Source: Flagellimonas sp. MMG031 (GTDB lineage Bacteria; Bacteroidota; Bacteroidia; Flavobacteriales; Flavobacteriaceae). Taken from it: a stretch of DNA of 64,000 nt. The translations under genes and the position numbers were made by a program. Positions 7,586-53,380 of the stretch are shown piece by piece. The notes beneath the pieces are model-generated. The model saw only the letters and a list, made by a program, of their open reading frames with translations. It was not told where the DNA came from and ran no database searches. Each line of letters starts with the position of its first letter. Positions within the stretch are counted from its first letter, which is position 1. Where the stretch lies: NCBI RefSeq assembly GCF_040112705.1, contig NZ_CP157804.1, forward strand, positions 932,501 through 996,500. Reading direction: 5' to 3'.

Positions 7586-7689
7586 CGAAGTGACAGCTTG
7601 GGCAATAGCTTCCCTCAGTTTCCCGAGTTGGGGAGACTGTTCAAAAAGTTGGGAAATCGGGGTTTTGGTCAATCCAAAAAACTTTGCCG

Positions 7690-7697
7690 CAAAGATA
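7690..7697 (-). promoter_or_regulatory. Predicted -7 promoter element for mfd
   Basis: The minus strand reads TATCTTTG, a perfect match to the Bacteroidota TAnnTTTG -7 box, 18 bases upstream of the ATG at 7672. No convincing -33 TTTG is visible at the expected spacing. Confidence 0.5.
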
Positions 7698-7774
7698 AAC
7701 CGCGTAACCTTTTAGTAAAAATGTTTTTTGGGTTTGTTTTGATTTGGGTAGAATGTGTGTGCTTGGTGTGATGA

Positions 7775-38474: not shown

Positions 38475-38556
38475 GCCTTGGTGGCGGAATTGGTAGACGC
38501 GCTGGATTCAAAATCCAGTTCCTTCGGGAGTGGGGGTTCGATTCCCCCCCAAGGTA
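38475..38556 (+). tRNA. tRNA-Leu (anticodon CAA), integration site of the island
   Basis: 82 bases without encoded CCA. Acceptor stem GCCTTGG/CCAAGGT (G-U first pair), D-arm TGGCGGAATTGGTAGACG, anticodon loop TTCAAAA in CTGGA-TTCAAAA-TCCAG (anticodon CAA, codon UUG), a long class II variable arm TTCCTTCGGGAG, T-arm GGGGG-TTCGATT-CCCCC, and discriminator A. From 38507 to 38557 it is repeated at 53295-53345 with two covarying differences. The 3' half is therefore probably supplied by the integrated element, restoring a functional tRNA. Confidence 0.93.
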
Positions 38557-38567
38557 CAAAAGGGATA

Positions 38568-38596
38568 AGCCGAGATTTACCTCTCGGCTTTTTTAT
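38568..38596 (+). terminator. Terminator downstream of tRNA-Leu, carried by the island
   Basis: AGCCGAGA (38568-38575) pairs with TCTCGGCT (38582-38589) over a six-base loop and is followed by a T-run. It would end the tRNA transcript after integration; the original chromosomal terminator appears to be the one at 53349. Confidence 0.75.
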
Positions 38597-38599
38597 TTT

Positions 38600-38620
38600 G
38601 GTACAACATAGGTACAACAT
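38600..38620. promoter_or_regulatory. Candidate integrase arm-type site, left end
   Basis: Two GGTACAACAT copies at 38600-38609 and 38611-38620, repeated with an 11-base period (one helical turn). The same 24-base block occurs at 53168-53191 near the right end, in the same orientation. It lies 43 bases inside the left core repeat. Confidence 0.55.
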
Positions 38621-38860
38621 TTTAAATTCTTCAACTTTAACATTTTGGTTGTGCTTTTTTGGTATCATTTGACCCTATTTCTTGCACTTGTTCAAGTTAT
38701 ACCCAACTCCATCCATGTATTTTAGAGCTTTCAGTCATTAAGACTGGGGGTACCGATCCAACTTCAAAGAGAGCAGAAAGCTACCCTATAAAACGGCTGA
38801 TAGTCAATATCGATGATGCAGCTCGAAATACTTTGCCGTAGAAAATGATTTTTATGCCCC

Positions 38861-39410
38861 AAAATTTTGATGATTTGATGACAGATTGATATTAGCCCAG
38901 CGTTTATAAGGGTTTAGGCTGTCATCACTTTGTCATCATACTGTCATCAAAATAAAAAATGATGACAGGGACGTTGAAGAAAAAAACAAAAACGATGAAA
39001 CGATGACAAAATGATGACGGGTGAATAATCAGTATTTATAGGGTCTCCGAGAGGTTTGTCATCAAATCATCAAAATTTCGTTGGAAACGGAACGCAGAGC
39101 GAAAGGAACAAATAAATCAAAAGATAAAGCACCCCAAACGACAGGTGTACGGCTATTTGTCCCGACCGCTCTTTGGGGTAAGCCCATGGGAAATGGATTT
39201 TGCAAAGAAAGAAGAATAATACCTACCTAGTTACCTAAAGTAGGATATAGTCAATGGTCATGGGGCAAAACCTTAGGTAGGATATATAACATTCATCTTA
39301 CCTAGAGGTTACCTAACCTACCTAAAGGGTAAGATAGGTAAGTTGAAAAAACATCTGACCTAGCTTAAAAACCCTCGTCATCATTGGGATAGGTAGGAAG
39401 GTAGGAGAAA
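38861..39410. other. Repeat-rich, origin-like region of the island
   Basis: Within the ~900-base gap 38640-39543 three structures occur. First, a perfect 22-base inverted repeat (38862-38883 and 39057-39078; halves begin AAATTTTGATGATTTGATGA and TGTCATCAAATCATCAAAAT). Second, eight copies of TGTCATC/GATGACA (exact TGATGACA/TGTCATCA or one base off) lie in or between these arms. Third, a separate family of ACCTAC/GTAGGT repeats lies at 39221-39406. Such iteron-like clusters are typical of replication origins or partition/transfer sites. It lies next to the primase-helicase gene. The first ~220 bases (38640-38860) show nothing recognisable. Confidence 0.5.
39025..39219 (+). pseudogene. Possible 3' remnant of an unrecognised gene
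   Basis: A 64-codon open stretch with no start codon except one near its end, closing at TAA 39217-39219. The translated end is protein-like rather than random (KHPKRQVYGYLSRPLFGV then SPWEMDFAKKEE). It looks like the C-terminal part of a gene whose 5' part has been lost or replaced by the GATGACA repeats. I do not recognise the family. Confidence 0.3.
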
Positions 39411-39543
39411 TAACAAAACTTGAGACAATGAGAGAAAAAATAGAAACGCCATGGACTGCGAAAAAGCTCGCAACATTGACATCGTTTCCACGCTGCCAAG
39501 TTGAGACACTTTCCAGTTCGGAATACGGAAAAAGACTAAGGTA

Positions 39544-42531
39544 TTACAGCAAACGTTCTTCCAAAGCATTTTTCCATTTATAGAAGCCTCTTCCATCTTC
39601 GCTATAGTCATGAATTATCCTACTGAAATTTTCTTTTTTGGTTTCCAAAAAAGATTGGCGCCCATTATTACGGATCCAATTCAATTTCTGGTTGATTCGT
39701 TCCAATTCTACTTTGAAAAGAGAATGTTCTTTTGGAAGATGCCACACATAGGTGGCCTCTTTGGTATTCAGTGTTTCCAGAATAATGTGATGTTTTTGTT
39801 CTCCCTCTACTAGGAAAACGAATGAAAATGGATTTAAAACAAATCTGATTTTCAGTTTTTCATACTGATGCTGTTTTGATAAATATAATAACTGCCTATA
39901 GTGGACATAATTGCTGTTTTTCAATAGGCTTTCCAACAGATTATCAGCTGAGCCAAAGAATGATCCTATTGTTCTAGGCACCTCTTCAGTATCTTCATCC
40001 TTTCCAAGTTTTACACTCTTAATAAAATGTTGTTCAATAAACTGAAATTTTACACTATCCACTATTTCTTTATTGATACGGTCAATATCATCCGAGGTGG
40101 CCAATTGCGAAACAACCGCAGCATCATTAAATCCTATATGGATACGGACCGTAATGAATTTGGAGTTTAAAACCCTAGTGAAATATGGTTTCAATACCTC
40201 AAACTCAGGTTGCATTTCTTCATTCTCGATTTCAAATTCAAATGAAGTTCCATTTGGGGATTTATATGAAAAACTGACCATTCCGTAATGAAAATCCAAA
40301 TTGTTGATAGCAACTTTAATGACCTTGTCGATATCGTTTAGTCTCGGTCCATTATCAATGTCTTCTTTTAAATCCTCAAACAGCGTTGCTTGTCGGTCAA
40401 GATTTCTATAGTAGGTGTTCCTTTTTAAAAAGAGCTTATCCAGATACGGGATTTGCTTATCCCGATAATCATAAATAACGGGTGTTAATTCAGAACGTTG
40501 TACCCTTCCGATATATTGGATTAGTTTGCCCTTAAAGGCAAACGGATATACCAAGAACAAGCAGGAGATGGTTTGGATATCCACCCCTTCCCCAAAAAAT
40601 TGCCCGGTAGTGATAATAGCTTGAAAGTTGCCTTGTTCGATATTTTTCCATTTCATCGAACGTGAGGTTGCGTTATCATCGCCTGAAATTGGAATAATCT
40701 CAAATTGATTTTTAAGATATTGATGAAGGGTTTGAATATGCTCTTTTCGCTCCGTAATGATTACTGCCTTTCTACCCTTTTTCAATTCATTTCCAACATC
40801 GTTTAAGATGAGTTTATTCCTTTCGGAATCGTGGACCAATATTTTGGAAAGGGTTTCAAAATGGTCAGTTTTTGGGTTAAAGGGAACGTTGAGATTGGTT
40901 TCGCGAATTACAACCCTTGCTTTTTTGTATTGTTCAATTTGTTGGGGCTTTATTTCAGAAATAATGTTTCCCAAATACACAAAAATTAATTTTTCATCAT
41001 TGCTTTTACGGAAGGGGGTTGCCGTTAACCCATATTGATAATACGGAGAGAGTTGATGCACGACCTCACGAAAGGATTTAGCCGGAATATGATGGCATTC
41101 GTCTATGATTATGGCGCCAAAAGCAGATGCTAATTTTTGTGCATCATTTTCGTTGGATAGTTTCTTTGCCAACGTTTGGATCAATGCCACTGTTACCTTT
41201 TTGCCAATCTTCATTTTGCCTTGACCAATTTTGCCGATTTCCCTTTTTGGAATTCCAAAGAAAGTTTCAATTCTATCCATCCACTGCTCGGCGATCTGTT
41301 TTCTATGGGTAAGGATTAATGCAGGTTGTTGCTTTTGTTCAATGATTTTTAGTCCTATTATTGTTTTTCCCGATCCTGGTGGGGCTACAATAATTCCGAA
41401 ATCCTTTTTTTTAGCTGTTTCTACCGGGTGGAATTGGTGTTTTAGCAGCTGAATTGAGGACTTCAACTCAATATTGTTCAACTGTTTTCTTTGGTCTATA
41501 AATTCATAATCAATGTGCTTTTGCTTACAGAACCGAACCAAGCTCCCTATAAAACCTCTCGGGATTTCAATTGTATTTTCGGTTTCATCAATAAGTTTAA
41601 AATAGCGCTCCGTCTTCCAAGTACTTCTTCCGGTGTTCTTTTTAACCGCATAATCAGCATTAAAAAAGTTCAAACGCTCTTTTAAAAAATCAACTATTGG
41701 TGGGATTAGGCCATTTCGATTAATCACGATACTGTTTCTTAAACTAATCTTCAATTTCCCGGTATTGACATTATGGCTTTTAGAAAAAACCTTTGTGACT
41801 ACGCTTTCCTTGGATAATTCTTCTAAAACCCTATCCAAATGAATGATCGAAACCCTTTTGATGCTTTTTAAAAATTGCCATTGATTTTGAAAGGGAGTAA
41901 AAGTCCGCAGGTCAATAAAACAGGAATTGCCCTTTTGTAAAGCTTCTCCTTGAAGCGGGAGGGCAATCAGGTTTCCAAACCCTTTTCCTGACAAATAATC
42001 TTGGTTTGGAAATAGCCTGTCGAAACTAGTGTTTTTGTCAAATTTGGAAAAAACACCTGCTTGCTCGAAAAGCTTCAATAAAACCTTTCTGCTTTTTATG
42101 GCCGGGTATGGCTGTTCAAAGAATATCCATACGTGTCCACCATTTCCTGAACGCGAACGTTCCAAATATGCAGGAATCCCATTTTCCTTACAAACAGTTA
42201 TAGCTTTAACGGACTGCTCTTTCCAGTCTTTTTTATCAAAATCGGCCACGATAAACCAAGAGGTGTTATCGGTCAAAAGTGGATAAACACCAATAAATTT
42301 GACGCCTTTTATATGTTTTGTTAGTTGATGGCCATCTAATTTTAAATAGGTCTTGTCCTTATAATTGTTGAATGTTCCTCCTTTTTGTTTGTGTAGGCGG
42401 TACATATAGGGGTCATAATGATAAGCTGGCATATAACCACTTTTATCACCCTTTTCCCATCGTATAGCAAAGACATCGTCACGCCCTTTGAAAAAGGTTT
42501 TCAGTAACTGTATTTGCTTTTCAATATTCAT
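39544..42531 (-). CDS. AEP primase-SF2 helicase fusion (TOTE conflict-system type)
   Basis: 995 residues. Residues ~1-240 match the archaeo-eukaryotic primase domain annotated for TOTE systems: ADFDKKDW (metal-binding D-x-D, 97-99), SGNGGHVWIFFEQP (His133) and a conserved FPNQDYLSGKGFGNLIALPLQG-type region. An SF2 helicase follows: Walker A VAPPGSGKT (~383-391), IIDECHHI (~476), GLTATPF and QYIGRVQR. The last ~240 residues are not recognised and may hold a further enzymatic or DNA-binding domain. It could make primers, replicate the element, or act in antiphage defence. It is transcribed alone, between the origin-like region and the AbiE operon. Confidence 0.75.
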   Translation of the reverse strand: MNIEKQIQLLKTFFKGRDDVFAIRWEKGDKSGYMPAYHYDPYMYRLHKQKGGTFNNYKDKTYLKLDGHQLTKHIKGVKFIGVYPLLTDNTSWFIVADFDKKDWKEQSVKAITVCKENGIPAYLERSRSGNGGHVWIFFEQPYPAIKSRKVLLKLFEQAGVFSKFDKNTSFDRLFPNQDYLSGKGFGNLIALPLQGEALQKGNSCFIDLRTFTPFQNQWQFLKSIKRVSIIHLDRVLEELSKESVVTKVFSKSHNVNTGKLKISLRNSIVINRNGLIPPIVDFLKERLNFFNADYAVKKNTGRSTWKTERYFKLIDETENTIEIPRGFIGSLVRFCKQKHIDYEFIDQRKQLNNIELKSSIQLLKHQFHPVETAKKKDFGIIVAPPGSGKTIIGLKIIEQKQQPALILTHRKQIAEQWMDRIETFFGIPKREIGKIGQGKMKIGKKVTVALIQTLAKKLSNENDAQKLASAFGAIIIDECHHIPAKSFREVVHQLSPYYQYGLTATPFRKSNDEKLIFVYLGNIISEIKPQQIEQYKKARVVIRETNLNVPFNPKTDHFETLSKILVHDSERNKLILNDVGNELKKGRKAVIITERKEHIQTLHQYLKNQFEIIPISGDDNATSRSMKWKNIEQGNFQAIITTGQFFGEGVDIQTISCLFLVYPFAFKGKLIQYIGRVQRSELTPVIYDYRDKQIPYLDKLFLKRNTYYRNLDRQATLFEDLKEDIDNGPRLNDIDKVIKVAINNLDFHYGMVSFSYKSPNGTSFEFEIENEEMQPEFEVLKPYFTRVLNSKFITVRIHIGFNDAAVVSQLATSDDIDRINKEIVDSVKFQFIEQHFIKSVKLGKDEDTEEVPRTIGSFFGSADNLLESLLKNSNYVHYRQLLYLSKQHQYEKLKIRFVLNPFSFVFLVEGEQKHHIILETLNTKEATYVWHLPKEHSLFKVELERINQKLNWIRNNGRQSFLETKKENFSRIIHDYSEDGRGFYKWKNALEERLL

Positions 42532-42596
42532 GAGAAGATATTTATATTTCTTTTTTGATGCATTGCCTTATAATTTCATTTTGGCGAATAGTTCAA

Positions 42597-43490
42597 TCAA
42601 TCCAATACGTTCTTCAATGAGGTAACAAAACTTTCATGCTTTTTAAGGTTCCTGTTTTTAAGATTGATAAGATTCTGTAGTTTCCATTGCACGGCAGGAA
42701 AACGTTCAAAATCATAAATATCCCAATTGGGAGTTCCTTGGCCAAAACCCAATAAGAACTCCTTGTCTTCAGCTGTTAGGTTTTGATGGATTTCTTTTAT
42801 CAATTCCTTCCTGATTTTTTCAAAATCCCCATAGGTAAAAGGTTCCGGACTCATACCTTCAAATTGGTTGAGCAAGGTTTTCCTTTGGTCGATAAAATTG
42901 GGATGCAACATTTCGTGAAGGGGGCGGTTACTGCTCAAAAGGAACAATAGGAACCCCTTTTTGATTTCGTCAGTAAATCCTTCGTTTTCCATCATATATT
43001 TTACATCGAACAAATCCCTGGGATGTTGTCGGTCCAATGCAGCGCATATTTTTCCACCATACAATTGACCTAAAGGAACTACCGGTACGGCGCAGAAAGC
43101 ATCAAACTCCTCTTGGGTTTTTTCGCATAGCGGCAATGTTACCGTTTCACCCATGACACCCCTATTGATTTGGTTAACTTCCAATTTTATCTGTGCGTTT
43201 ACAGTGGTGATCTGAAGTTTTAATGTCTCCTTTTTTAGGGTGATTGTAGCTTCCGGTAAAATTTTTTCGAGTTTTGTTTTTATATGGTCAAGACCATTAA
43301 TAATGTTCTTAAAGGATGTCTTTCTATCCTCTATGGGGATGTAGGTCAAATCAATATCTACCGACAATCTGGGCATGTCCCTTACAAACAGATTGATGGC
43401 CGTACCACCGTGCAGTGCGAAATCCGGTTCCTTTGCTACCTCCGGTAACACCTGTAACAATAGGGAAACCTGTTGCTTGTAATTATTCAT
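42597..43490 (-). CDS. abiEii: AbiEii/AbiGii-type nucleotidyltransferase toxin
   Basis: 297 residues from ATG 43490 (MNNYKQQVSL); the frame is open 18 codons more but those fall inside the antitoxin gene. The nucleotidyltransferase motif LHGGTAINLF...SVDIDLTY (GGT 28-30, DID 45-47) and the downstream GGKICAALDRQHPRDLFDV motif match AbiEii. In type IV toxin-antitoxin systems this toxin modifies RNA substrates (tRNA in studied relatives) and causes reversible growth arrest that limits phage spread. It overlaps the antitoxin stop by 8 bases. Confidence 0.88.
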   Translation of the reverse strand: MNNYKQQVSLLLQVLPEVAKEPDFALHGGTAINLFVRDMPRLSVDIDLTYIPIEDRKTSFKNIINGLDHIKTKLEKILPEATITLKKETLKLQITTVNAQIKLEVNQINRGVMGETVTLPLCEKTQEEFDAFCAVPVVPLGQLYGGKICAALDRQHPRDLFDVKYMMENEGFTDEIKKGFLLFLLSSNRPLHEMLHPNFIDQRKTLLNQFEGMSPEPFTYGDFEKIRKELIKEIHQNLTAEDKEFLLGFGQGTPNWDIYDFERFPAVQWKLQNLINLKNRNLKKHESFVTSLKNVLD

Positions 43491-44247
43491 AATTTTCCAA
43501 TGCTTTAGGGACCGTGATACGGTATTTGGATATATAAACACCATCTTTTACCAAGGAGCGTTTTCCTTTTCCAAGATCGATTTTTTCCAAGTTGGTGTAT
43601 TTAAACCAATCGTGCCCTGCCTTTTCTGCCATGTACAGAAAAAGTCGTTTCACCTTTACGGAAGTGCAGGCCTCCAAAAGTTCCTGTACCTGCTTTGGCC
43701 TTAGGTTGTTCAATCCTTCCATTATTTCATAGCACTCGACCAGTTCTTGTTTCTTGGGTATTAGATACAGACACTCCATTAAGGCCCTTGCTGGATTCGA
43801 CACCGACAAATTGAAAGTCCCTTGCTCCAAAGTTTGTAGTCCTAGATTGGAAGGAAGGAAGGAGGAACTATAGTAGTCCACTTTTAACCCCCAGTTGTAT
43901 TTTGAAAACCAAGCGGGCAATTTTTCTTCGCTTCCCCCGAACAACGTTATTTGTTTTGTGGATAGTTCCAGATAATGGACTTTTCCCAATAAGGATAAGG
44001 CGGTCTTACCTCCCGGATGGATAGTTAGGTTAGCTTGTTCTTGCAACGCAAATAATGCTCCTTGATAGGTAGGCTTATCACCCATTCTCATCCAAGCTCC
44101 GGAACCAATGGAATATATCCAACGGCTCTTTTTATATCGATTGAGCAATTGTGTGGAGAATCCATTTTCCGTTAACCATGAGCTTAAATAGACAACTCCC
44201 GGAGGCTGTGAATTAAGAAAACGGTTTATTTTTTGTTCTTTTTCCAA
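43483..44247 (-). CDS. abiEi: AbiEi-family antitoxin/transcriptional repressor
   Basis: 254 residues. An N-terminal winged-helix domain (residues ~1-75, ...LTENGFSTQLLNRYKKSRWIYSIGSGAWMR) is followed by the AbiEi C-terminal domain (NLTIHPGGKTALSLLGKVHYL, then NPARALMECLYLIP). Known AbiEi proteins repress their own operon and neutralise AbiEii without a stable complex. It is the first gene of the pair, behind the inverted repeats at 44276-44341. Confidence 0.85.
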   Translation of the reverse strand: MEKEQKINRFLNSQPPGVVYLSSWLTENGFSTQLLNRYKKSRWIYSIGSGAWMRMGDKPTYQGALFALQEQANLTIHPGGKTALSLLGKVHYLELSTKQITLFGGSEEKLPAWFSKYNWGLKVDYYSSSFLPSNLGLQTLEQGTFNLSVSNPARALMECLYLIPKKQELVECYEIMEGLNNLRPKQVQELLEACTSVKVKRLFLYMAEKAGHDWFKYTNLEKIDLGKGKRSLVKDGVYISKYRITVPKALENYE

Positions 44248-44275
44248 ACTAAAAGTTTTGATATTAAATCTTTTT

Positions 44276-44341
44276 TAAACCATAAAAAGGCCACATGGTT
44301 TATAATCATTCAAATATACAAACTAATAATTTGTGTATTTG
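44276..44341 (-). promoter_or_regulatory. AbiE promoter with two inverted-repeat operators
   Basis: Inverted repeat 1: CAAATATACAAA (44311-44322) and TTTGTGTATTTG (44330-44341), one mismatch over 12 bases. It contains the minus-strand -7 box TATATTTG. Inverted repeat 2: TAAACCAT (44276-44283) and ATGGTTTA (44295-44302). They lie 29-94 bases upstream of the abiEi ATG. Two inverted repeats at this place fit the known AbiEi negative autoregulation. Confidence 0.6.
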
Positions 44342-44701
44342 TATTTTTTTAAACTTTCATGTTTCCAAAAAGTGTCTATAAAAATGTATGGTAATGGATA
44401 AAGTATTCATGCAATATATCCGAAAGTTAAATGTTGTAAAACATTTCTCAGAAAGGTGACGGCCAACATTTTTTCAATGTTTACTTGTTCGATTTCATTG
44501 CCGCCCCAAAATTTTGGCTTCGATTTGGGCCGTGCTCAAATTGGAACGAAAGAACGGGAAAAAACGCTATAGATAAAGTTCGGCAACGAATTCAAGATGT
44601 GTCATTGTCATGACAATCATGCTTTTGCTCCCGGAGGGTCGCAAAAGAAAGACCGCAGTTCGTGATATTTTATCTTTTAAATTGAATAAGATTAAAGATT
44701 C
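44342..44701. other. Non-coding gap with palindromes (possible nick or operator site)
   Basis: No credible gene. It contains the perfect 14-base palindrome ATTGTCATGACAAT (44604-44617) and, just after it, CTTTTGC (44622-44628) pairing with GCAAAAG (44641-44647) around TCCCGGAGGGTC. The hairpin lacks a T-run, so it is not a normal terminator. A plus-strand open stretch starting at 44610 mostly shadows the permease gene. Confidence 0.4.
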
Positions 44702-47011
44702 TTATTCGTTTCGTAAAGCATCTACTGGGTTGGCCATGGCAGCTTTAAAACTTTGCCATGAAATTGTTACAAATGCAATAACTAAGGTCGTAACGCCTGC
44801 TAAAACAAAAATCCACCAACTCAATTTGGTTTTATATGCAAAATTTTCAAGCCATCTATTCATTGTATACAATGAAATCGGTACAGCAATAAAAAATGCC
44901 AATAATACCCATTTTAGAAAATCCTTATTCAATAGCGAAAGTACCTGTGCAATATTGGCTCCGTTTACTTTTCTGATTCCTATTTCCTTTTTCCGTTGCT
45001 GAGTGTAAAAAGTTGACATTGCCAAAATACCCATTGCAGATATTATAAAAGATAATAGTGTAAAATAGCCAATGACTTTACCTGTCCGTTCATCCTTTTC
45101 ATACCATTGGTTGATGGACTCATCAACAAAATTGATATCAAATTCGACATCCCCGATTAAATCTCCATAAACTGATTTGATCTTTTCGGCAATTTCAAAA
45201 ATAGATTTACCTTCAACTTTTAAGAATATATTGTCTGCATACCTATCAGGTGTTAGTTGTCTAATCATAAGTGGGCCAACATGGTTGCGAAGTTCTTTAA
45301 AATTAAAATCATTGACCACTCCTAATATTGGGAGTTCATCTTCATGGAACCTAAATGAATTTTCCCCATCCTTCAGTTCCAATGTTTTTAGTCCTGTTTC
45401 ATTTAAGAACACCCCATTTTCCGAGTAAGCGACATTATTTTTCTTAATATCAATTCCGAAGACATTATAGAATGAAGAGTCCACCGCAAACTCTTGAAAG
45501 CTAATAGATTTTCCATTATGATCAAATGTTTGGTTACTTCCACCACTCAATTGACTCTGCCATGTTATGGATACATTCTTGACACCAGGGATTGTCATAA
45601 GAGCATCCTTAATGGTGCTTTTTTGGTTCATTGCCCCTAGATATTCCATTTGGATGATATTATCTTTTTGAAACCCTAAATCATAATTGCGCAGAAATTC
45701 GGTCTGCTTTAGAATAATCCAACTACAGACCAATAGGGCTATTGTTACAGTATATTGAAAAGTGATAAAACCCTTAGCATATATACCCTTGGATTTTTTC
45801 TTAAACCCACCATTCACCACTTCAATAGGTTTAAAGCTTGAAATCTTCATAGCTGGAACAATCCCGGATAACAAACCTATGATGGTAAAAATTAATAAAA
45901 AGATCATTAGATTGGTAATGTTCAAAGCATTGTCCAGAAGTAATTGGGTATTCAACAGAGAATTAAAGATAGGTTCTACCAATATGGCAAGTAAAAGAGC
46001 AAGAAGCAATGAGAGAATACATAAAAAAACAGACTCTTTGACCAATTGAAAGACCAGTCTTTTCTTTGAACTTCCCAGTAGCTTTTTCATCGCTACTTCC
46101 TTCCCTCTGAAAGTAGATTGGGCAATTGTCAGATTGATATAATTGCCAACTGCAAGTAACAGGATAATAAATACTATGACTGATAGAACAGTAATTAAGG
46201 CTCTGCTATTACTCTTTGTGCCACTTCCTTGTTTTGAACTAAAATATAGATTCTTCAATGGTGTAAACTCTACGGTGTTTGCCCAACCTTCCTTATAAAG
46301 CCAAAAATTCTTTTTGAAGTTTTCGTGTATTTCAGGGGCTTTTGCAGGAAGATTGGTGTTTGCCTTGGCTAAAAAATAGATGCTGATTGAGCACCATCCA
46401 TATTCTTCCATTATGGTTTCAAATCCCCAAATGGATTTGAAAGCCTTTAGGTTCACAATGGCATCTTGTTTTTCAAAATGTGTATTCTCCGGAAAATCCT
46501 CCATTATACCAGTAACCGTGAACTTATTGTTGGAATTGATGAACACTGTTTCACCAATAATGTCCAAAGTTCCAAACAGGTTGAAAGCTCTTGATTCTGA
46601 AAGAACTATACCATCAGCCGATTGAAGAACACTACTTACATCACCTTTGATAAGTGGAAAGGAAAAGATTTTAAAAAATGATGCATCCACTCCAAGGTAG
46701 TCAAACTTAGTCTTTTGCCCATCTGTTTTCGAAATCCTCCCGGATTCACTGTAAACCCTGGTAAAATCCTCAATTTCAGGGTAGCTGTCTTTTAAATCGA
46801 CAGCTATGGGGGGCGAGAAATCTACACTTTCGTTTTCAAGCCGAAAGATCCTTTCTTTCTTTAAATGAAAATCATCTATGGAAAGCTCATTCTTAATATA
46901 TACACTTAGTAATAAAACAAAAGTTAGTGAAAAGGCAAAACCCAGAACAGTTACTACTGTGTATAATTTATTCTTCAAAAGATGTCGAAAGTATGGTTTT
47001 ATTTCATTCAT
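44702..47011 (-). CDS. FtsX/MacB-type ABC transporter permease, without ATPase partner
   Basis: 769 residues from ATG 47011 (MNEIKPYFRHL); an upstream ATG at 47035 lies only six bases from the proposed promoter, so the shorter start is preferred. N-terminal membrane helix (NKLYTVVTVLGFAFSLTFVLLL), a periplasmic MacB-like core, FtsX helices (~270-420), a second core and C-terminal helices ending in KAAMANPVDALRNE. This is the double-FtsX layout common in Bacteroidota mechanotransmission or export systems. No ATPase is nearby, so it must use one encoded elsewhere or be a passenger. Its place inside the island is unusual. Confidence 0.82.
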   Translation of the reverse strand: MNEIKPYFRHLLKNKLYTVVTVLGFAFSLTFVLLLSVYIKNELSIDDFHLKKERIFRLENESVDFSPPIAVDLKDSYPEIEDFTRVYSESGRISKTDGQKTKFDYLGVDASFFKIFSFPLIKGDVSSVLQSADGIVLSESRAFNLFGTLDIIGETVFINSNNKFTVTGIMEDFPENTHFEKQDAIVNLKAFKSIWGFETIMEEYGWCSISIYFLAKANTNLPAKAPEIHENFKKNFWLYKEGWANTVEFTPLKNLYFSSKQGSGTKSNSRALITVLSVIVFIILLLAVGNYINLTIAQSTFRGKEVAMKKLLGSSKKRLVFQLVKESVFLCILSLLLALLLAILVEPIFNSLLNTQLLLDNALNITNLMIFLLIFTIIGLLSGIVPAMKISSFKPIEVVNGGFKKKSKGIYAKGFITFQYTVTIALLVCSWIILKQTEFLRNYDLGFQKDNIIQMEYLGAMNQKSTIKDALMTIPGVKNVSITWQSQLSGGSNQTFDHNGKSISFQEFAVDSSFYNVFGIDIKKNNVAYSENGVFLNETGLKTLELKDGENSFRFHEDELPILGVVNDFNFKELRNHVGPLMIRQLTPDRYADNIFLKVEGKSIFEIAEKIKSVYGDLIGDVEFDINFVDESINQWYEKDERTGKVIGYFTLLSFIISAMGILAMSTFYTQQRKKEIGIRKVNGANIAQVLSLLNKDFLKWVLLAFFIAVPISLYTMNRWLENFAYKTKLSWWIFVLAGVTTLVIAFVTISWQSFKAAMANPVDALRNE

Positions 47012-47041
47012 AAACAAGGTTTTAGTTTCTTGCACCCCTTT

Positions 47042-47057
47042 AACAACACTTTTGCCA
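47042..47057 (-). promoter_or_regulatory. Possible sigma-54 promoter of the permease gene
   Basis: The minus strand reads TGGCAAAAGTGTTGTT, close to TGGCAYRNNNNTTGCW (GG and a G-T in place of GC ten bases apart), 31 bases upstream of ATG 47011. The inverted repeat TGTAAA/TTTACA at about 47150-47166 could be an activator site. The remaining gap 47170-47436 shows nothing else clear. Confidence 0.35.
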
Positions 47058-47436
47058 TTCCAAAAATTGAACCAACCTCCAAAAACTTTTTAATATTCTG
47101 ATATTAAGTATTTTAAATTACGCTCTTTTATTTAATCTGAAGTATGAGTGTAAATTTTTTTTACAAAAAGTGTCAATCTATTAGACATGTTTTTTCAACA
47201 CCAATAAGAGTTTTGGAATAACTTTATTAAGCGAACGGAACGAAGTGAAGTGCTGCAAGCCCCAAATACTTACACAAACTAATTTACTGAGCGAGGCAAA
47301 ATCTGTTAAGTTTTAAAGAGTTCCAATAGAATGTTTTTGAGAGGTACCCCAACCCATGACCATTAGAAGATATAGACTTTTCTAACTTTTTTTGTTGGTC
47401 ATTTCCAAAAAAGATCGACATCCTCTTTCCATTGCC

Positions 47437-47619
47437 TCATTTCCCTTTATTAATGTGTATAATGAAAGTATTCTCATCATGTTTGGCCTTTGTGGGAAAC
47501 CGGTTGATGCGCTGCATCAAATCCAAGAAACGGTAAATGCGTTCAATAGGGGTAAGTGCCAAGAAACCTCTTTCCTGTTCTATATTGGCCTCATCTTTGG
47601 TGCGAAATTGAACTTGCAT
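47437..47619 (-). CDS. Small conserved-looking protein of unknown function
   Basis: 60 residues, charged, with no signal peptide: KVQF-like start (MQVQFRTKDEANIEQERGFL), then ALTPIERIYRFLDLMQRINR. Its composition and length resemble small Bacteroidota proteins encoded next to minimal nucleotidyltransferases, but I cannot name the family. Its stop overlaps a following ATG (ATGA) that starts MRQWKEDVDLFWK and then hits a stop at once, so a second coupled gene seems to have been cut off here. Confidence 0.45.
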   Translation of the reverse strand: MQVQFRTKDEANIEQERGFLALTPIERIYRFLDLMQRINRFPTKAKHDENTFIIHINKGK

Positions 47620-47728
47620 ATACCTTTTATAACCGTTCTAGGATATAAAGATATTACAAATTGGCCAGAACTATACTTTTAGGTACATCTACCAATGAAG
47701 TAAGTGAGTGGTTGAAACTTAAAATAAT

Positions 47729-48136
47729 CTATTTCATCAGCTTTTCTAAATACGCAACCTTGTCCTTTTCAGCTTGTAACAAACGCTCATAAAGCTTCTT
47801 GTTTTCTTCGTATGCATCAATTAATTTATCCAAAGGATTGAATGTGCAAGTATTATTGTGGCCAAAGTTGCTACTGGACACCTTTTCATTAAAGGTGTTG
47901 AAATAGTTAATCATTGATTCCTCAGAAAAATTTTCAATAGCCTCTTTGGATACGCCAAGAGCCTTAGCAATCTCCTCTAGCTTGGCATCATCTACTTTTT
48001 CGCTGTTCTCTAAATTGGAAATGGCCTGTTGGCTGATACCCAGTTCTTCTGCAAGAGTTTCTTGTTTCATCCCTCGAAGTTCCCTGATTCTACTAATCTT
48101 TCTGCCTATATGGTTGTTTTTGGTCTTTGTCTGCAT
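47729..48136 (-). CDS. XRE-family transcriptional regulator
   Basis: 135 residues. A helix-turn-helix domain (residues ~10-65: KISRIRELRGMKQETLAEELGISQQAISNLENS) is followed by a helical tail rich in charged residues (EENKKLYERLLQAEKDKVAYLEKLM) that probably dimerises. It could control the island's defence genes or its excision. It is the only obvious stand-alone regulator in the element, divergent from the AAA-DUF4435 gene across a 650-base gap. Confidence 0.85.
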   Translation of the reverse strand: MQTKTKNNHIGRKISRIRELRGMKQETLAEELGISQQAISNLENSEKVDDAKLEEIAKALGVSKEAIENFSEESMINYFNTFNEKVSSSNFGHNNTCTFNPLDKLIDAYEENKKLYERLLQAEKDKVAYLEKLMK

Positions 48137-48788
48137 AGCTCAAATATAGGGTGTTTCCCACAATAAACCGATTGTAATTTACAAAACAGATTTAATAAAA
48201 TACAAATGCCATTTATGGGATGAAAAGGTACATTTTATTCAAAATGACTAATTATTTTTGATTTTTCCGTGAAAATTTTCTTGAATTTACTGGGCTGAAC
48301 ACCTTTTTCCGTGAAAAATAGAAGATTTGCCGATAAAATTATTGGACAAATAAAGCCTTCATTACTCAACTAAGCCATTCTTCAAAAAACCATTTTTTAG
48401 TAAAAAATCAATTGATTTTACTGGTCGGAAGGCCTTTTTTAGTAGAAAAAGCTATAAAGTTCATAGATCAATATTTTTAAAAACACCTTAGAAATGGGGT
48501 TTTCCGAAGGAAAATGAATCAATAACAGTGCGCCAGCATGTTACCCTCTTGCTTTACATTTTTCTTTTGCCAGGCAAAAGAAAAAAGAAAGCAATCCAAT
48601 ATTGGATTCTAAATAAATCCTCCATTCGATGCAATTATTAAACCTTTTACGGAATTTCACATTTTACAGTTTATTGAAAATTCTTACATTTAACTCAACC
48701 CCCTGCATATTTACAGTGAGTGATCCTGCGTACAACCCATAACTGATGTTATTAAATAACCGTTCCCTGCCATTTAAAAAATACTTGA
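48137..48788. other. Long divergent regulatory gap with duplicated element
   Basis: AT-rich, no credible gene. Two 60-base units, 48262-48320 and 48392-48450, are diverged direct copies about 130 bases apart. Each has TTTTT(CC/TA)GTGAAAA-like or TTTTTTAGTAAAAAA-like palindromic ends around a central TTTTACTGG stretch. A perfect 13-base inverted repeat with a one-base loop (TTTTTCTTTTGCC/GGCAAAAGAAAAA) lies at 48559-48585. These may be operators or an untranslated RNA for the genes on both sides. Confidence 0.45.
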
Positions 48789-50704
48789 ATGAACCAACAA
48801 CTACAAGCATTTTTAACTTACGTCCAAACTGCTAAAAATGATTTAAATATTCATAGACAAGTTTCTTTTGAATTAGAATGCAATGAATCAACATTGGACA
48901 TTATAGATAAAATTATTGCATTAGTTACCTTGATAGAAGAAAAGGCAACTGCCGGTAATTTTGAAATCAATTATCTAAATCAATTTAGGTCTAATATAGA
49001 TAACGTATTGAGTTCACTGCCCTTTAGAGGTCATCAAAACACTTCATTTATTCCCCAACAAAACGAGCACTGGATAAAACAAACGCGCACTAATATTGAA
49101 CAAAATGGGGTTAATTTTGTTAGGTATTACGACCAATTAAATTTTAATGTTGATTTTTTTGAAAAGATTGGATTTTTCAATAATAATGTGGTCGCAATTG
49201 GTGCTAATGGCAGTGGAAAAACAACCCTATCAAACAAGTTTAAAAGCTACCTTCAAAATAATGGAGTAGTAATTTCTGCCCAACGAATTTTATTGGTTCC
49301 CAGTTTTGATTCTATTTCAAACCCAGCTAAAACTGCAACGGAACTTAAAGAATCTCAACTTCGAGATAAAACAAACAAAAATGATGGCGAATTCAGATAC
49401 TTACAGCAAGAATTTTCCATAGTATTAAAAAATTTACTTGCAGATAATATTTCTGTTGGCAATTCATATAGGAAAAAAGCTATTGAATTGGTTAAGTCTG
49501 GAAAAGAAATGGAAAGCCCAAGATTAACTAATTTAGATATAACATTTCAAATATGGAATTCTTTAATAGAGCATAGAACAATTGAATGCAGGGATGGAAT
49601 TAATATCACAGCTTATTCAGAAGACGGTAGGTCGTACCCTGCAATACAAATGAGTGATGGTGAAAAAGTTATGCTATATCTCATTGCTCAAGTTTTACAA
49701 GCACCATCTCAAGGATTTATTGTCATTGATGAACCTGAAATGTATCTGCACAAAACTATATTAAAAAAGCTATGGGACATATTAGAAAGTGAAAGGAACG
49801 ATTGTCTTTTTATTTATCTTACACACGATTTAGATTTCGCAACCAGTAGAACGACTGCAAAAAAGATATGGATCAAATCATTTACACATCCCGACAAATG
49901 GGAAATTGAAGATATACCAACTGATGAAATACCTGAGACTCTTCTTTTTGAGTTATTAGGTAGTAGAAAAAATATTCTTTTCTGTGAAGGTGTTAAGGTA
50001 GTATTGACGAAAGGGTCTACTCAATCCTTTTCCCTGAATTGACAATAATGCCAGTGGGCAGTTGCTTTGATGTAATTAATCACACTAAAGCCTTTAATAA
50101 GTTACAAAATGTAAACACTAATGCATTTGGTCTTGTTGATTCTGATCATCACGATACTTCAAGACTGGAAAAACTAAAAGAAAGTGATGTCTATTCATTT
50201 TCAGTTGCTGAAGTTGAAAATTTATTTTTGGATTCAGATTTCCTGGCAATTCTTGCGAAACAGATTTTAACTGATGAAGCAAATGTTGATTTAATTAAAA
50301 CTGACGTCATTAAAGAATTAGACAAACTAAAAGAAGTTCAGGCTTCAAATTATGTAAGCACGAAGGTAAATTACTATTTCACCGATAGTGATGTTTCTAA
50401 AGGTAACGCCTTAAATCAGTTAGAAACTAATTATCAAAATTTCCTAGATAACATTACAATAAATGATTGGTTTACTGACCGTATTGCTCAATTAAATCAA
50501 ATGATAACCAGTGCAGACTATGACAAAGTGTTGGTTACTTTTAATCATAAAGGAATCAAAAATATAGCTAGTAAACATTTAAACATATCTGATTTTACGG
50601 ATAGAAGTATAAAATTGTTACAAGGGAATGAAGATGCAAAATTGGCTCTAATTAAATATTTCCCAGAAGAAATAAAAACTGCCGGCAAAGATGGCTATAA
50701 GTAA
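48789..50704 (+). pseudogene. AAA ATPase-DUF4435 (TOPRIM-like) fusion, PARIS/OLD-like, with one frameshift
   Basis: Read through one missing base this is a single protein of about 638 residues. N-terminal ABC-type ATPase: Walker A GANGSGKTT (~138-146), signature MSDGEKVMLY (~288), Walker B GFIVIDEPEMYLH (~310) and H-switch YLTHDLDFA (~344). The C-terminal DUF4435/TOPRIM-like part has ILFCEG, GLVDSDHHD and VAEVENLFL. The frame breaks at about 50000: GTTAAGGTAGT should be GTTAAAGGTAGT (CEGVKGSIDERVYSILFPEL). Otherwise it splits into 48789-50042 and 50039-50704. AriA/AriB of PARIS have these two parts, sometimes fused; OLD-family nucleases are the other relatives. Sequencing error or true inactivation cannot be separated here. 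Confidence 0.75.
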
Positions 50705-50772
50705 TTGCTTTACTTGCAAAGTTAAGTGCTAAACCTCGACTACGAACAGAGACCGTTAACTGCCAATATGAA

Positions 50773-51639
50773 ATGAAAGGAAAATTAAAGATAGAGTTTG
50801 ACCAAGTTCATAATCTTTTGCAAGAATTCAATTCTGTTACCTATGAACCAAATGAATTAAATTCCAAAATTTTCCAGTCTGTTTTGACAGGTATTTTTGC
50901 AAAATGTATTGAGTTCAACTTTTACATCGTCAATAAGAAAAAAACGGGTTCATTCTTTCTTTTGTCCAGCCTTCGGAGTATCACGGAGGAACTGATTGCC
51001 TTTAAGTATATAATCTTAAAATATAGTGGAGATAAAAACGAACTTATATCGACCTACGCACATAAGAATTGCTACGACAGCATAATCGCTCAACAGAACT
51101 TTTTCAAACAAATCGGTTCTCAACAGCCAATAATGAATGAAGCACTAATTCCAGAAATGATTAAAGAGGCATCCAATGATTTGAAAAAAATTTGGGAAAG
51201 AGAAGGATTAAATAAAAAAAGAGATTTTCCAAGTGTTGCCCAAATGGCAACAGATGGAAAGCTAATAAAACTTTATGATTACCTGTATTCGGCTTCTTCC
51301 TCTCATGTACATTTTAACCCTCATATTATTTTGAGAACGGGTTGGAGTAAAGATTTAGATGAACGGCCTCAAGTTCATAAATTTTCAACTAACAATTTCG
51401 ACCAGTACTACGAAGATTTTATTATTTATTATGGGTGCTTCTTATTCGTAGAAATGATTAAAGCATTTAAAAAAGACCTGAATTTAACAAAGGAATTTTT
51501 AAATCACTACAAAGCGATAAAATCCATATTGGAAAAGGAAAAAAGAATTCCAGAATTAGTAACTTTCGAAGAGTTTAACATTGAAAGGGGAATGTTCTTC
51601 ACATTATCGGGAATTGGACTAGAGCACATGAAAAAATAA
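50773..51639 (+). CDS. DUF5677-like protein
   Basis: 288 residues, mostly helical, no signal peptide or membrane segment. The family pattern is visible in SSLRSITEELIAFKYIILKY, AHKNCYDSIIAQQNFF and LYDYLYSASSSHVHFNP (conserved Arg, Glu, His and Asn). Function unknown; the domain often appears near defence genes. It starts 68 bases after the AAA-DUF4435 gene on the same strand and could be its partner, but the spacing also allows independent expression. It is AT-rich like that gene, unlike the backbone. Confidence 0.6.
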   Translation: MKGKLKIEFDQVHNLLQEFNSVTYEPNELNSKIFQSVLTGIFAKCIEFNFYIVNKKKTGSFFLLSSLRSITEELIAFKYIILKYSGDKNELISTYAHKNCYDSIIAQQNFFKQIGSQQPIMNEALIPEMIKEASNDLKKIWEREGLNKKRDFPSVAQMATDGKLIKLYDYLYSASSSHVHFNPHIILRTGWSKDLDERPQVHKFSTNNFDQYYEDFIIYYGCFLFVEMIKAFKKDLNLTKEFLNHYKAIKSILEKEKRIPELVTFEEFNIERGMFFTLSGIGLEHMKK

Positions 51640-51917
51640 CAGCAGATAACAATTAGTAAACGAAATACGGTCCAAATGATAAGACCGAACCTTTTAGACC
51701 TTAAGAAAGCATAGAAAATATAATTCTTAACCCTTCCACTTTTTAAATCTTCCTTAAAATAGGACTAACCTAAATAAGATCTTGCCGGAACATTAATAGC
51801 AAAGTAAATTGCACCCTATTCCAATTCTATTTAACGCTTATCTGCCGGAACGCTATAAAATTGGAACAGGAACCATGTGCAAAAGTTCTGGTAAGATTGG
51901 GACAAACTTAAGTCAAT
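51640..51917. other. Convergent gap with short repeats
   Basis: TGCCGGAAC occurs twice exactly 60 bases apart (51783-51791, 51843-51851). TTCCAATT (51819-51826) and AATTGGAA (51859-51866) form an 8-base inverted repeat around the second copy, and the inverse-like GTTCTGGTAAGATT follows at 51885. No gene. Possible roles are termination between convergent genes or a directionality-factor site. Confidence 0.35.
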
Positions 51918-53132
51918 TTAGAAATTTACCACACTTTGAAGTGCGTCATCGGTTTTTTTGTTCATGAAATTGGATTGGTACATCATTGTGGTGGTAATCG
52001 AAGAATGGCGGTAAAGTTGTTGTAGCAACTGCACAGGGATATTGTCTCCAGCAATATTTCCAAAACTGTGCCTTGCAATGTGCATGGTGATTTTTTTGTT
52101 TATCTCCGCTTTGTCTGCAATAGTGCCCATTTCATCATTGATTTTTCTAATGGCTAGCTTGGTTTTTTTCCAAAGTACCTTTCCATCCTTTGAATTTACA
52201 TATTTGAGATATGGAAAGATAAAATCATTGTTTCCTCCCTTTGTTCTTTGATGGGAGTCAATAATTTTCTTAGCCTTATCCGGGATTAACAACGAAACTA
52301 TTTTGGAGTTTTTCTTCATTGTATAGTGCAAGCGGCCATCATATATATCGCTCCACTTCAATTGTAGGACATCCGAAGCCCTTATTCCTGCTAGATAAAA
52401 ACTAAATAACCAGACATCCCTGGCATGTTTTTGGCTTTCGGACAAGGAAGCTAAGTTTTCAATTTTTTTTATTTCACTGGCATTTAGGCCCACTTTTTCC
52501 GTTTCAGGAAATTTGATGGCAATTTTGTTATGCCCAAAAGGATATAGCTTTCTGTCAACAAGCCCCATTTTAATTCCCCTATTGTAAATGGTTCTAATTA
52601 CCACAAGATTGTTGACTACCGATCTTTCGGAAACTTTTCGCTCCGATTTTAGATACCGGATAAACCCTTTTAAAAAGCGTTCACTTATTTCTTTAAATGG
52701 AAGGGTCGAAGACCTGCTATATTTCTTTAGATGATTGATGCGTGCTTTGTCCGAAGAATGTTGACTTAATCTGTTGTTGTTTTCCAATTCATCCAAATGC
52801 TCTTGGGCAACTTGAAAAAAGTCTTTCTTATTTAAGACAGATTCAATCTCTGCCTTGATTTGACTGGCAGAAATATCTTTGTTCTCCGCTTGCAGCCTTA
52901 AAATAACCTTACCCGTTTCAGCAAGCTTTATTTCCAAAAAGTTATTTAGGTGAGCGGGATTAGGATGAGATCTTTTGACTTGTCTTTTTTTGGCATCCCA
53001 GTATTTTGCATCGACATAATGACCCAAATAAATGTAGCTTGTTCTCCGATCTTTTGATATTCTGATGGCCAGAGGGTATTCACCAAATTTATTTGGTTTT
53101 TTCCGGAGTACTATTTTTGTATTACTGGCCAT
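51918..53132 (-). CDS. int: Tyrosine-type site-specific integrase
   Basis: 404 residues. Bacteroidota phage-integrase layout: an arm-binding N-terminal domain (YLGHYVDAKYWDAKKRQVKR), a SAM-like core-binding domain (~105-200) and a catalytic domain. Catalytic residues visible: first Arg in LAGIRASDVLQLKW, HIARHSFG (His-x-x-Arg), a second His in YRHSSITTT, and nucleophile Tyr in TTMMYQSNF. It recombines attachment sites to integrate and excise the island. Its 5' end is 160 bases from the right core repeat. Confidence 0.93.
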   Translation of the reverse strand: MASNTKIVLRKKPNKFGEYPLAIRISKDRRTSYIYLGHYVDAKYWDAKKRQVKRSHPNPAHLNNFLEIKLAETGKVILRLQAENKDISASQIKAEIESVLNKKDFFQVAQEHLDELENNNRLSQHSSDKARINHLKKYSRSSTLPFKEISERFLKGFIRYLKSERKVSERSVVNNLVVIRTIYNRGIKMGLVDRKLYPFGHNKIAIKFPETEKVGLNASEIKKIENLASLSESQKHARDVWLFSFYLAGIRASDVLQLKWSDIYDGRLHYTMKKNSKIVSLLIPDKAKKIIDSHQRTKGGNNDFIFPYLKYVNSKDGKVLWKKTKLAIRKINDEMGTIADKAEINKKITMHIARHSFGNIAGDNIPVQLLQQLYRHSSITTTMMYQSNFMNKKTDDALQSVVNF

Positions 53133-53167
53133 TTACTTGATAATCTTGTAGTAAAGATAATACAAAG

Positions 53168-53191
53168 TTGGTACAACATAGGTACAACATT
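53168..53191. promoter_or_regulatory. Candidate integrase arm-type site, right end
   Basis: GGTACAACAT at 53170-53179 and 53181-53190, identical in sequence, spacing and orientation to the left site at 38600-38620. It lies 37 bases upstream of the integrase ATG and 104 bases before the right core, so integrase binding could also repress its own gene. A perfect hairpin TTTTATTTG/CAAATAAAA (53208-53229) lies between it and the core. Confidence 0.55.
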
Positions 53192-53294
53192 TCTTGGGTT
53201 TAATTGATTTTATTTGAAATCAAATAAAATAAAAAAACTGATAAACAATTGAAAATGAGTTGATAATAGATAAAATGACCTAATACCGCTTGGC

Positions 53295-53345
53295 TTCAAA
53301 ATCCAGTTCCTTCGGGAGTGTGGGTTCGATTCCCACCCAAGGTAC
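53295..53345 (+). other. attR: displaced 3' part of tRNA-Leu
   Basis: Copy of 38507-38557 starting in the anticodon loop (TTCAAAATCCAGTTCCTTCG...) and ending CCAAGGTAC. It differs from the left copy only at 53321 (T for G) and 53335 (A for C), the two partners of one T-stem pair. It lacks the 5' half and promoter, so it is not a functional tRNA. Confidence 0.9.
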
Positions 53346-53348
53346 TGC

Positions 53349-53380
53349 AAAACCCTGACATTTTTGTCAGGGTTTTTTAT
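53349..53380. terminator. Original tRNA-Leu terminator, also facing the TonB receptor gene
   Basis: AAAACCCTGACA and TGTCAGGGTTTTTT pair around TTTT; the T-run is on the plus strand. It directly follows the tRNA fragment and lies 11 bases beyond the stop of the minus-strand TonB receptor gene. Confidence 0.75.

Follow-up and report, generated by a model that had tools for sequence, protein, structure and literature searches.

How does a defence island without transfer proteins spread, and how does its cargo change at a fixed place? These questions are raised by an island of ~15 kb (38503–53345) that lies within the tRNA-Leu(CAA) gene of Flagellimonas sp. MMG031. The window analysed here is a 64,000-nt stretch of that genome (NZ_CP157804.1, positions 932,501–996,500 of the forward strand), and all coordinates are positions in it; G and L numbers denote genomes and loci. 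The ten island proteins were scanned with Pfam, and PADLOC and PHROGs were also run. No relaxase was found in the island by Pfam or tblastn. We consider it probable, with considerable room for doubt, that this element of a marine, Allomuricauda-type flavobacterium is an integrative hitchhiker of the iOriT type, which has no relaxase of its own and is processed by a resident integrative mobilizable element (IME). The comparisons point to a satellite of IMEs rather than of phages.

The island retains pieces of a mobilization module. An element in the same tRNA gene of genome G016 encodes, by Pfam, HTH_17, VapE-like, CHC2/Toprim primase, NikA-like MobC and MobA relaxase proteins; tblastn recovered the same gene set in G011, and in G007 up to mobC, where the contig ends. 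Window positions 39117–39535 are 92% identical to the 3′ end of the G016 VapE gene, the intergenic region and the start of the Toprim gene, and positions 44545–44648 are 88% identical to the Toprim end and the start of mobC. These plus-strand segments hold a 33-codon remnant of the VapE-like 3′ end (39118–39216; 91% over 33 residues by tblastn, stop included), a remnant of the Toprim/CHC2 primase 5′ end (39436–39535; tblastn and translation) and a Toprim 3′-end and mobC-start remnant (44545–44650) whose translation matches the last Toprim residues. Their arrangement is collinear with the IME order of a helix-turn-helix (HTH) gene, a helicase-type gene, an origin-like block, the Toprim primase, MobC and MobA, and a cassette of AbiE and primase-helicase genes sits between the two segments. 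A first-pass annotation of this DNA had reported no conjugation genes, which holds for the relaxase, although it overlooked these remnants.

Three plus-strand blocks stand out in and beside the remnants. Block A (38862–39078) is origin-like: its TGATGACA repeats lie between the arms of a perfect 22-bp inverted repeat. Block B (39217–39435), the former VapE–Toprim intergenic region, is rich in ACCTA/TAGGT and falls in a 92% match to the intact element L088. Block C (44589–44648) consists of two hairpins at the primase/mobC junction, inside the third remnant, and is a candidate origin of transfer (oriT). It folds better than shuffled sequence (z of −3.1 and −4.0 by strand; on either strand one shuffle in 200 did equally well). 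A is found in one IME lineage and B in a second. Block A was detected in 25 of 99 scanned relatives, often in several copies per genome; three of the 25 matches are short, partial and from other genera. At A-only loci, A lies just upstream of Toprim and MobA is present (16/16 fetched); in one of them, L176, the gene on the other side of A carries a DUF5906 domain. MobA was likewise present at three of four fetched B-only loci, the fourth (L097) being cut by a contig end.

The joint occurrence of A and B marks a different kind of locus. With up to eight candidates scored per genome, the two blocks occur together in at least six places among 71 genomes of the genus: the window, G001 at tRNA-Leu, G001 again (C2, 5.8 kb), G021 (C41), G1144 and G1156 (at a contig end). 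MobA lies within 3.5 kb of none of the six, G1156 being judged on a 4.3-kb contig, versus 19 of 20 A-only or B-only loci, L097 being the exception; the latter counts cover fetched loci, a subset of the places found. The sole MobA in the fetched piece of G1144 belongs to an IME beyond the right attachment site (attR). Block C is present in all five satellites that reach it, the other four being 95–98% identical to the window though their neighbourhood differs. It is 93% identical in IMEs with a related MobA and was not found in two IMEs with a 52% MobA. Across four satellites, conserved columns amount to 184/217 in A and 177/204 in B as against 71/99 in the VapE remnant and 67/101 in the Toprim remnant, so decay has gone less far in the noncoding sequence than in the coding remnants.

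The island belongs to a family whose common backbone includes an XRE HTH regulator gene (47729–48136, minus strand; Pfam) and its upstream region, with homology extending to about 48567. Two satellites occupy the same tRNA gene, in G001 and G1144, with integrase proteins 98% and 97% identical to that of the window and with different cargo. G001 carries the same AbiE–helicase cassette between B and C, and methyltransferase, dehydrogenase, DinB, cNMP-binding and other genes in place of the PARIS gene. In G1144, whose HTH protein is 99% identical, the B-to-C slot is empty save for ~170 bp of filler, and directly after attR stands a complete-looking, relaxase-bearing B-type IME, in tandem with the satellite at tRNA-Leu(CAA) (locus L223). 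Two further satellites, L181 and L186, have a 41% identical integrase and carry DUF6088 plus AbiEii, and Fic, respectively, in the slot. The reduced backbone is shared across these two integrase lineages, different species and different cargo. The genome under study also contains two apparently complete A-type elements (L176, L177), whose A and C are about 92–93% identical to the window and which are candidate helpers, together with a more distant A-type element (L178).

That the island is a real site-specific integrative element at tRNA-Leu(CAA) is clear from its ends. A 55-bp direct repeat with 95% identity links the left attachment site (attL, 38503–38557) to attR (53291–53345), which is the 3′ half of the original tRNA gene. 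The repeat has three mismatches and an identical core of 26 bp at 38507–38532; 51 bases were first described. Because two of the three mismatches are a compensating T-stem change, the complete left tRNA gene (38475–38557, plus strand; ARAGORN) bears the island's own T-arm. This T-stem, GGGGG/CCCCC, was seen only in G000, G001 and G005 among 30 fetched loci (prs was present in 35/35 searched genomes). A terminator carried by the island (38567–38590, plus strand) has similar counterparts downstream of the tRNA in several other congeners, and the original terminator follows the right tRNA copy (53349–53376). Guanine-plus-cytosine content is 0.32–0.41 in the island, 0.42–0.47 in the 8 kb to its left and 0.41–0.46 to the right beyond 54000. 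Three congeners (G018, G021 and G034) have an empty site in which prs, tRNA-Leu and a TonB receptor gene are contiguous, and the joined island flanks reconstitute tRNA-Leu(CAA), collinear over 2.3–2.4 kb with G018 and G021 (79%) and G034 (73%). A genome of the same species, G1162, has nothing that matches the left end of the island, and its tRNA-Leu locus was not located. Since G016 has a different, ~10-kb element beside the same right flank, the site is a hotspot. To the right of attR, G001 has a second left end made of terminator, arm site and 60-codon open reading frame (ORF) region (L058, 13963–14431), and G005 has such a left end beside its tRNA too (L080, 301–773), as an older scar at the hotspot would leave.

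The recombination machinery fits these ends. The tyrosine integrase (404 aa; 51918–53132, minus strand) has arm, SAM-like and catalytic Pfam domains and keeps its catalytic residues by motif (R251, H351xxR354, H376 and Y385). At the left end, two copies of GGTACAACAT 11 bp apart form a pair of arm-type sites (38598–38622, plus strand), and the same 25-bp repeat recurs exactly upstream of int (53168–53192, plus strand). This double arm site, GGTACAACATNGGTACAACAT, has two matches in the 3.76-Mb genome, at the island's two inner ends, and the reversed control has none. The arm motif is also found upstream of 54–56%-identical integrases in three congeners (L059–L061), as one pair and two single copies. 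The first-pass description of a 14.8-kb element in tRNA-Leu(CAA), with an integrase next to the right tRNA copy and two terminators, is thus borne out by the att repeats, the double arm site and the empty sites in relatives. One refuting condition named in that annotation, the lack of an empty site in every strain, did not hold. A 60-aa ORF was considered as an excisionase and rejected: it has no Pfam hit, and its homolog in G1144 is followed by a DUF6036 nucleotidyltransferase gene (60-codon ORF region, 47392–47680, minus strand).

The B-to-C slot of the window holds three minus-strand genes. An AbiEi_3 antitoxin/repressor gene (43483–44247) overlaps the gene for an AbiEii nucleotidyltransferase toxin (42597–43544; both by Pfam and PADLOC), and 65 nt on, in the same strand, comes a 995-aa fusion of an archaeo-eukaryotic primase (AEP) and a superfamily 2 helicase (39544–42531; PF22548, AEP-TOTE, E 1.8e-83), hereafter the helicase. 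Alignments show the motif residues of both primase and helicase intact; the AlphaFold model of the protein is poor (pLDDT 64.5, pTM 0.35). The cassette leader (44248–44541, minus strand) contains operator-like CAAACTA repeats, and the homology of the Flavivirga (L063) and G254 (L142) cassettes has its right end at window position 44541, beside the remnant start. No terminal inverted repeats or target duplications were seen by eye at the cassette. The helicase was found in 26/395 phylum genomes (E 1e-30), and in 9/397 family and 10/395 order genomes (E 1e-60), these samples overlapping.

The genes beside the helicase were compared at 25 loci of the same ~995-aa subfamily (the window, L062–L064, L067–L071, L078 and L138–L152). 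Partial contigs (L065, L066, L072, L077, L079, L156) and short-subfamily or distant loci (L073–L076, L153–L155, L157–L165) were left out; among them, L161 has AbiEi_1 and AbiEii upstream, L155 an AAA_14/DUF4143 protein, and most others no such upstream partner. A toxin- or defence-like gene stands upstream on the same strand at 19 of the 25 loci, and at 11 this is AbiEii: with AbiEi_3 in the window, L062, L063 and L142; of DUF6577 type in L064, L071, L140, L145 and L150; with DUF6088 in L141; and with AbiEi_2, a PP2C gene lying in between, in L148. Other partners are Fic (L078, L070), Schlafen AlbA_2 (L139, L067), DUF1016/YhcG (L143, L144), an OLD-Toprim ATPase and UvrD directly upstream as a Gabija-like pair (L146, in G926), and a weakly matched HTH/WCX protein with a large protein (L147). 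AbiE lies downstream in L149, a zeta-toxin-like kinase gene stands beside the helicase in L138 and L152 (antisense upstream in one, downstream in the other), and L151, L068 and L069 have no partner. For L062, L142, L145 and L150, AbiEii comes from a genome scan and its type from similarity; the partners in L070 and L071 were assigned by similarity alone. L150 has further ORFs in between, one IS200-like by eye, and a truncated helicase, and helicase frames are broken in L071, L142, L145 and L149.

The association with AbiEii is closer than density would predict. In eight of 11 cases the upstream AbiEii gene stops 2–129 nt short of the helicase. There are 41 AbiEii matches in about 74 Mb (19 helicase genomes), and AbiEii lies ≤2 kb from the helicase in nine of the 19 (10 with G149, an opposite-strand partial match) versus 0.07 expected, a figure based on rounded genome sizes and uncorrected for kinship or the clustering of defence genes. 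Five groups of AbiEii proteins can be told apart, with mutual identity of ≤27%. A tree of 23 rows places the Arenibacter helicase, which is Fic-linked, within the AbiEi_3-linked ones (100/100, 100/99), and ten partner labels require 11 changes, versus a minimum of nine and a shuffled mean of 13.6; partners are therefore both clustered and exchanged. The Fic-linked locus L070 retains a 152-bp stretch of the AbiE leader at 73% identity, as would be expected if one partner had taken the place of another inside an operon already there. On these grounds the primase-helicase and AbiE form one cassette with swappable partners. The helicase was also considered as the constant core of the tRNA-Leu element and rejected, since in 16 of the 18 loci L062–L079, several of them short contigs, 12 queries found no such integrase. 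Two Carboxylicivirga loci, L068 and L069, have a 53–54% identical helicase near tRNA-Leu(CAA) (18979–19063 and 7630–7714), L068 with a distant integrase. Elsewhere, in G439 (L125, 1489–2751), the helicase C terminus (~275 residues) occurs on a separate 420-aa protein, adjoining a 362-aa protein that by eye resembles an Mrr-type restriction nuclease. In a literature search that excluded subscription journals, no paper was found on the mechanism of this partner-swapping operon.

PARIS is encoded in the second cargo region. PADLOC assigned 48789–50042 (plus strand) to the AriA half of a single-chain AriAB, which runs through an ILFCEG motif and then out of frame, and 50039–50704 (plus strand) to the AriB (DUF4435/Toprim) half in another reading frame. 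A single AriAB model (PDLC02982) covers the two ORFs in succession. In the best listed homolog (93%), residues 1–403 correspond to the first ORF and 404–633 to the second, and the frame breaks at about 49,997, just after ILFCEG, which we take to be the Toprim motif with the catalytic glutamate. Single chains of 626–678 aa account for 116 of 120 among the matches listed, of 1438 homologs. A programmed frameshift or natural split was considered and set aside: no classic slippery site was seen by eye, nearly all of those listed homologs are single-chain, and the second ORF starts after the ILFCEG motif. The gene is broken by a frameshift, which may be a sequencing error. Both genes are required in Escherichia coli PARIS according to PMC9122126, and the AriB E26A Toprim mutant, according to PMC12409363, does not stall ribosomes as wild type does; the system encoded by this sequence is probably inactive. 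The three conflict modules of the first-pass annotation, including an AAA–DUF4435 module, are present as genes (PADLOC matched both AbiE and AriAB), but they come down to one primase-helicase/AbiE cassette and a single AriAB gene that a frameshift has split in two. A 288-aa DUF5677 protein (50773–51639, plus strand; Pfam) comes directly after AriAB and could be either an independent gene or a third component.

Relative to satellite L181, the island has two inserts: an FtsX/MacB-type permease gene (44702–47035, minus strand; Pfam), which the G001 copy lacks, and the region of the 60-codon ORF. The regulator proposed earlier is the XRE HTH gene described above. The origin-like region, which had been given no coordinates, fared less well: the intergenic 48137–48788 was rejected as a replication origin, having one direct repeat only, at 72%, and denser repeat arrays lie at 38862–39435.

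How, then, might such an island move? Integrase-driven excision would yield an island circle in which block C would serve as oriT, with A and B as replication or relaxosome sites. The circle would be processed by MobA and MobC of a resident IME, perhaps with its Toprim and helicase proteins too, and would leave through the pore of a conjugative element. The B-to-C space would be a cargo slot for a toxin/antitoxin or defence cassette, here AbiEi–AbiEii–AEP helicase, in which the helicase-primase might act on invading or replicating DNA and growth arrest would come from the AbiE pair transcribed with it; PARIS, now frameshifted, would have been supplied from the second cargo region. Excision, mobilization in trans, helicase–AbiE cooperation and a defence role are predicted from sequence comparison. 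The earlier notion of a self-mobile or satellite-like carrier survives in its second half, given the empty sites, att repeats, integrase and relatives with swapped cargo around a tRNA-integrated, defence-carrying element, but the island is not plainly self-mobile.

Several observations weigh against the hitchhiker reading. Nothing in the island was recognised as an excision factor. The six satellites are not six independent events, because they share ancestry, and defence is not their sole cargo, because G001 and G1144 carry metabolic or unknown genes. A 38-bp linker from A to the VapE remnant has no known role, yet with 33 of 38 columns conserved it matches A and B in preservation; part of block C is coding (Toprim end) in IMEs, where C is also 93% identical. 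A, B and C are candidate functional sites picked out by conservation only, and a slowly decaying dead IME would keep some sequence too. Such a decayed IME, a dead former mobilizable element with cis blocks as leftovers, would move, if at all, by its integrase together with transformation or transduction. The broken coding remnants, the frameshifted PARIS gene and the inserts in the backbone suit this account, which sits poorly with the better preservation of A, B and C than of the adjoining coding remnants and with the recurrence of one reduced backbone in two integrase lineages, with differing cargo and in different species. We think it unlikely, if with an appreciable chance of being correct.

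Two simpler accounts fare worse. Defence genes generally cluster, and the helicase also occurs outside such islands, as one would expect of a plain defence island, moved by its integrase only, in which unrelated primase-helicase, AbiE and PARIS genes accumulated by chance. Chance does not sit easily with the excess of AbiEii near the helicase, with the involvement of five AbiEii lineages, with most upstream AbiEii genes ending just before it, or with Flavivirga and G254 cassettes that end at the same leader position, and we regard this account as quite doubtful. A phage satellite packaged by a helper phage would be similar in size, tRNA site, integrase and defence cargo, and PARIS is described in P4-like satellites (PMC9122126). 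As the first-pass annotation had it, there are no capsid genes; nor did Pfam and PHROGs, which were applied to the genes, find terminase, packaging or structural phage genes among the island proteins, save one weak terminase-small match (E 4e-5), which is an HTH match. The helicase was covered to ≥80% in no phage record, none of its six peptide patterns was found in IMG/VR, and the remnants derive from a mobilization module. Packaging by a phage is therefore very improbable.

Hitchhikers without a relaxase are thought to be common, but the transfer origin is often not known, which makes such elements difficult to identify (PMC11389934). Comparing satellites with intact elements provides concrete candidate sites (A, B and C) and candidate helpers in one genome, so that helper dependence becomes directly testable in Bacteroidota. 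If the hitchhiker reading is true, it would explain both the spread of a defence island without transfer proteins and the change of cargo at one constant position. Apart from this, the primase-helicase operon with its exchangeable partners offers a testable lead of its own. A broader proposal is tentative and somewhat more apt to need revision than to hold: marine Bacteroidota IME satellites might fuse the origin blocks of two lineages with a transfer hairpin common to both, letting either one serve as helper, and might carry an exchangeable toxin/defence slot (AbiE plus AEP helicase, AbiE, Fic), with the AEP primase-helicase as a general DNA-sensing module whose killing partner is swapped (AbiE, Fic, Schlafen-AlbA, YhcG nuclease, OLD/UvrD).

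The island resembles several known systems and departs from each. TOTE systems are named for TPR, OB, TBP and Effector (PMC12458937, citing Aravind, Iyer et al. 2022). The island protein has the AEP-TOTE primase domain, as the first-pass label of a TOTE-type primase-helicase implied, but a toxin partner lies upstream, and the core genes looked for were not found: TBP (PF00352) is absent from all 19 helicase genomes (a control found it in 4/14, all archaea), and TPR and OB/cold-shock domains gave no Pfam hit in the island proteins, to which that search was confined. Because TBP is absent from all 19, the TOTE name fits the domain and not the system, and by these searches the island primase-helicase is not a canonical TOTE system. 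The island has the ABC ATPase and Toprim/DUF4435 halves of PARIS, for which a single-chain form is known (PMC9122126, PMC12409363), but its frame is broken between them. Its overlapping abiEi/abiEii pair and operator-like repeats look like AbiE type IV toxin–antitoxin systems; here the pair is followed by the primase-helicase.

At the level of the whole element, the IMEs of the genus (L088, L176 and L177) share the remnant gene order, block A or B, and block C, and L088 is also in tRNA-Leu, but they have their own MobA/MobC and Toprim/helicase genes, A or B alone, and other integrases. A relaxase-encoding IME (iMOB) has its own relaxase; the island has none. iOriT elements need the relaxase of an integrative and conjugative element or an iMOB (PMC11389934), and oriT-mimic mobilizable islands are known, such as MGIVflInd1 with SXT/R391 (PMC11389934, PMC5397120). 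Our literature search, with subscription journals outside its reach, found no description of the present satellite family. Like the known elements, the island has an integrase, no relaxase and cis sequences in common with a relaxase-bearing candidate helper in the same cell. Unlike theirs, its candidate helpers are IMEs, its blocks join two IME lineages, its oriT is a candidate, and it combines a Bacteroidota host with a toxin/defence slot.

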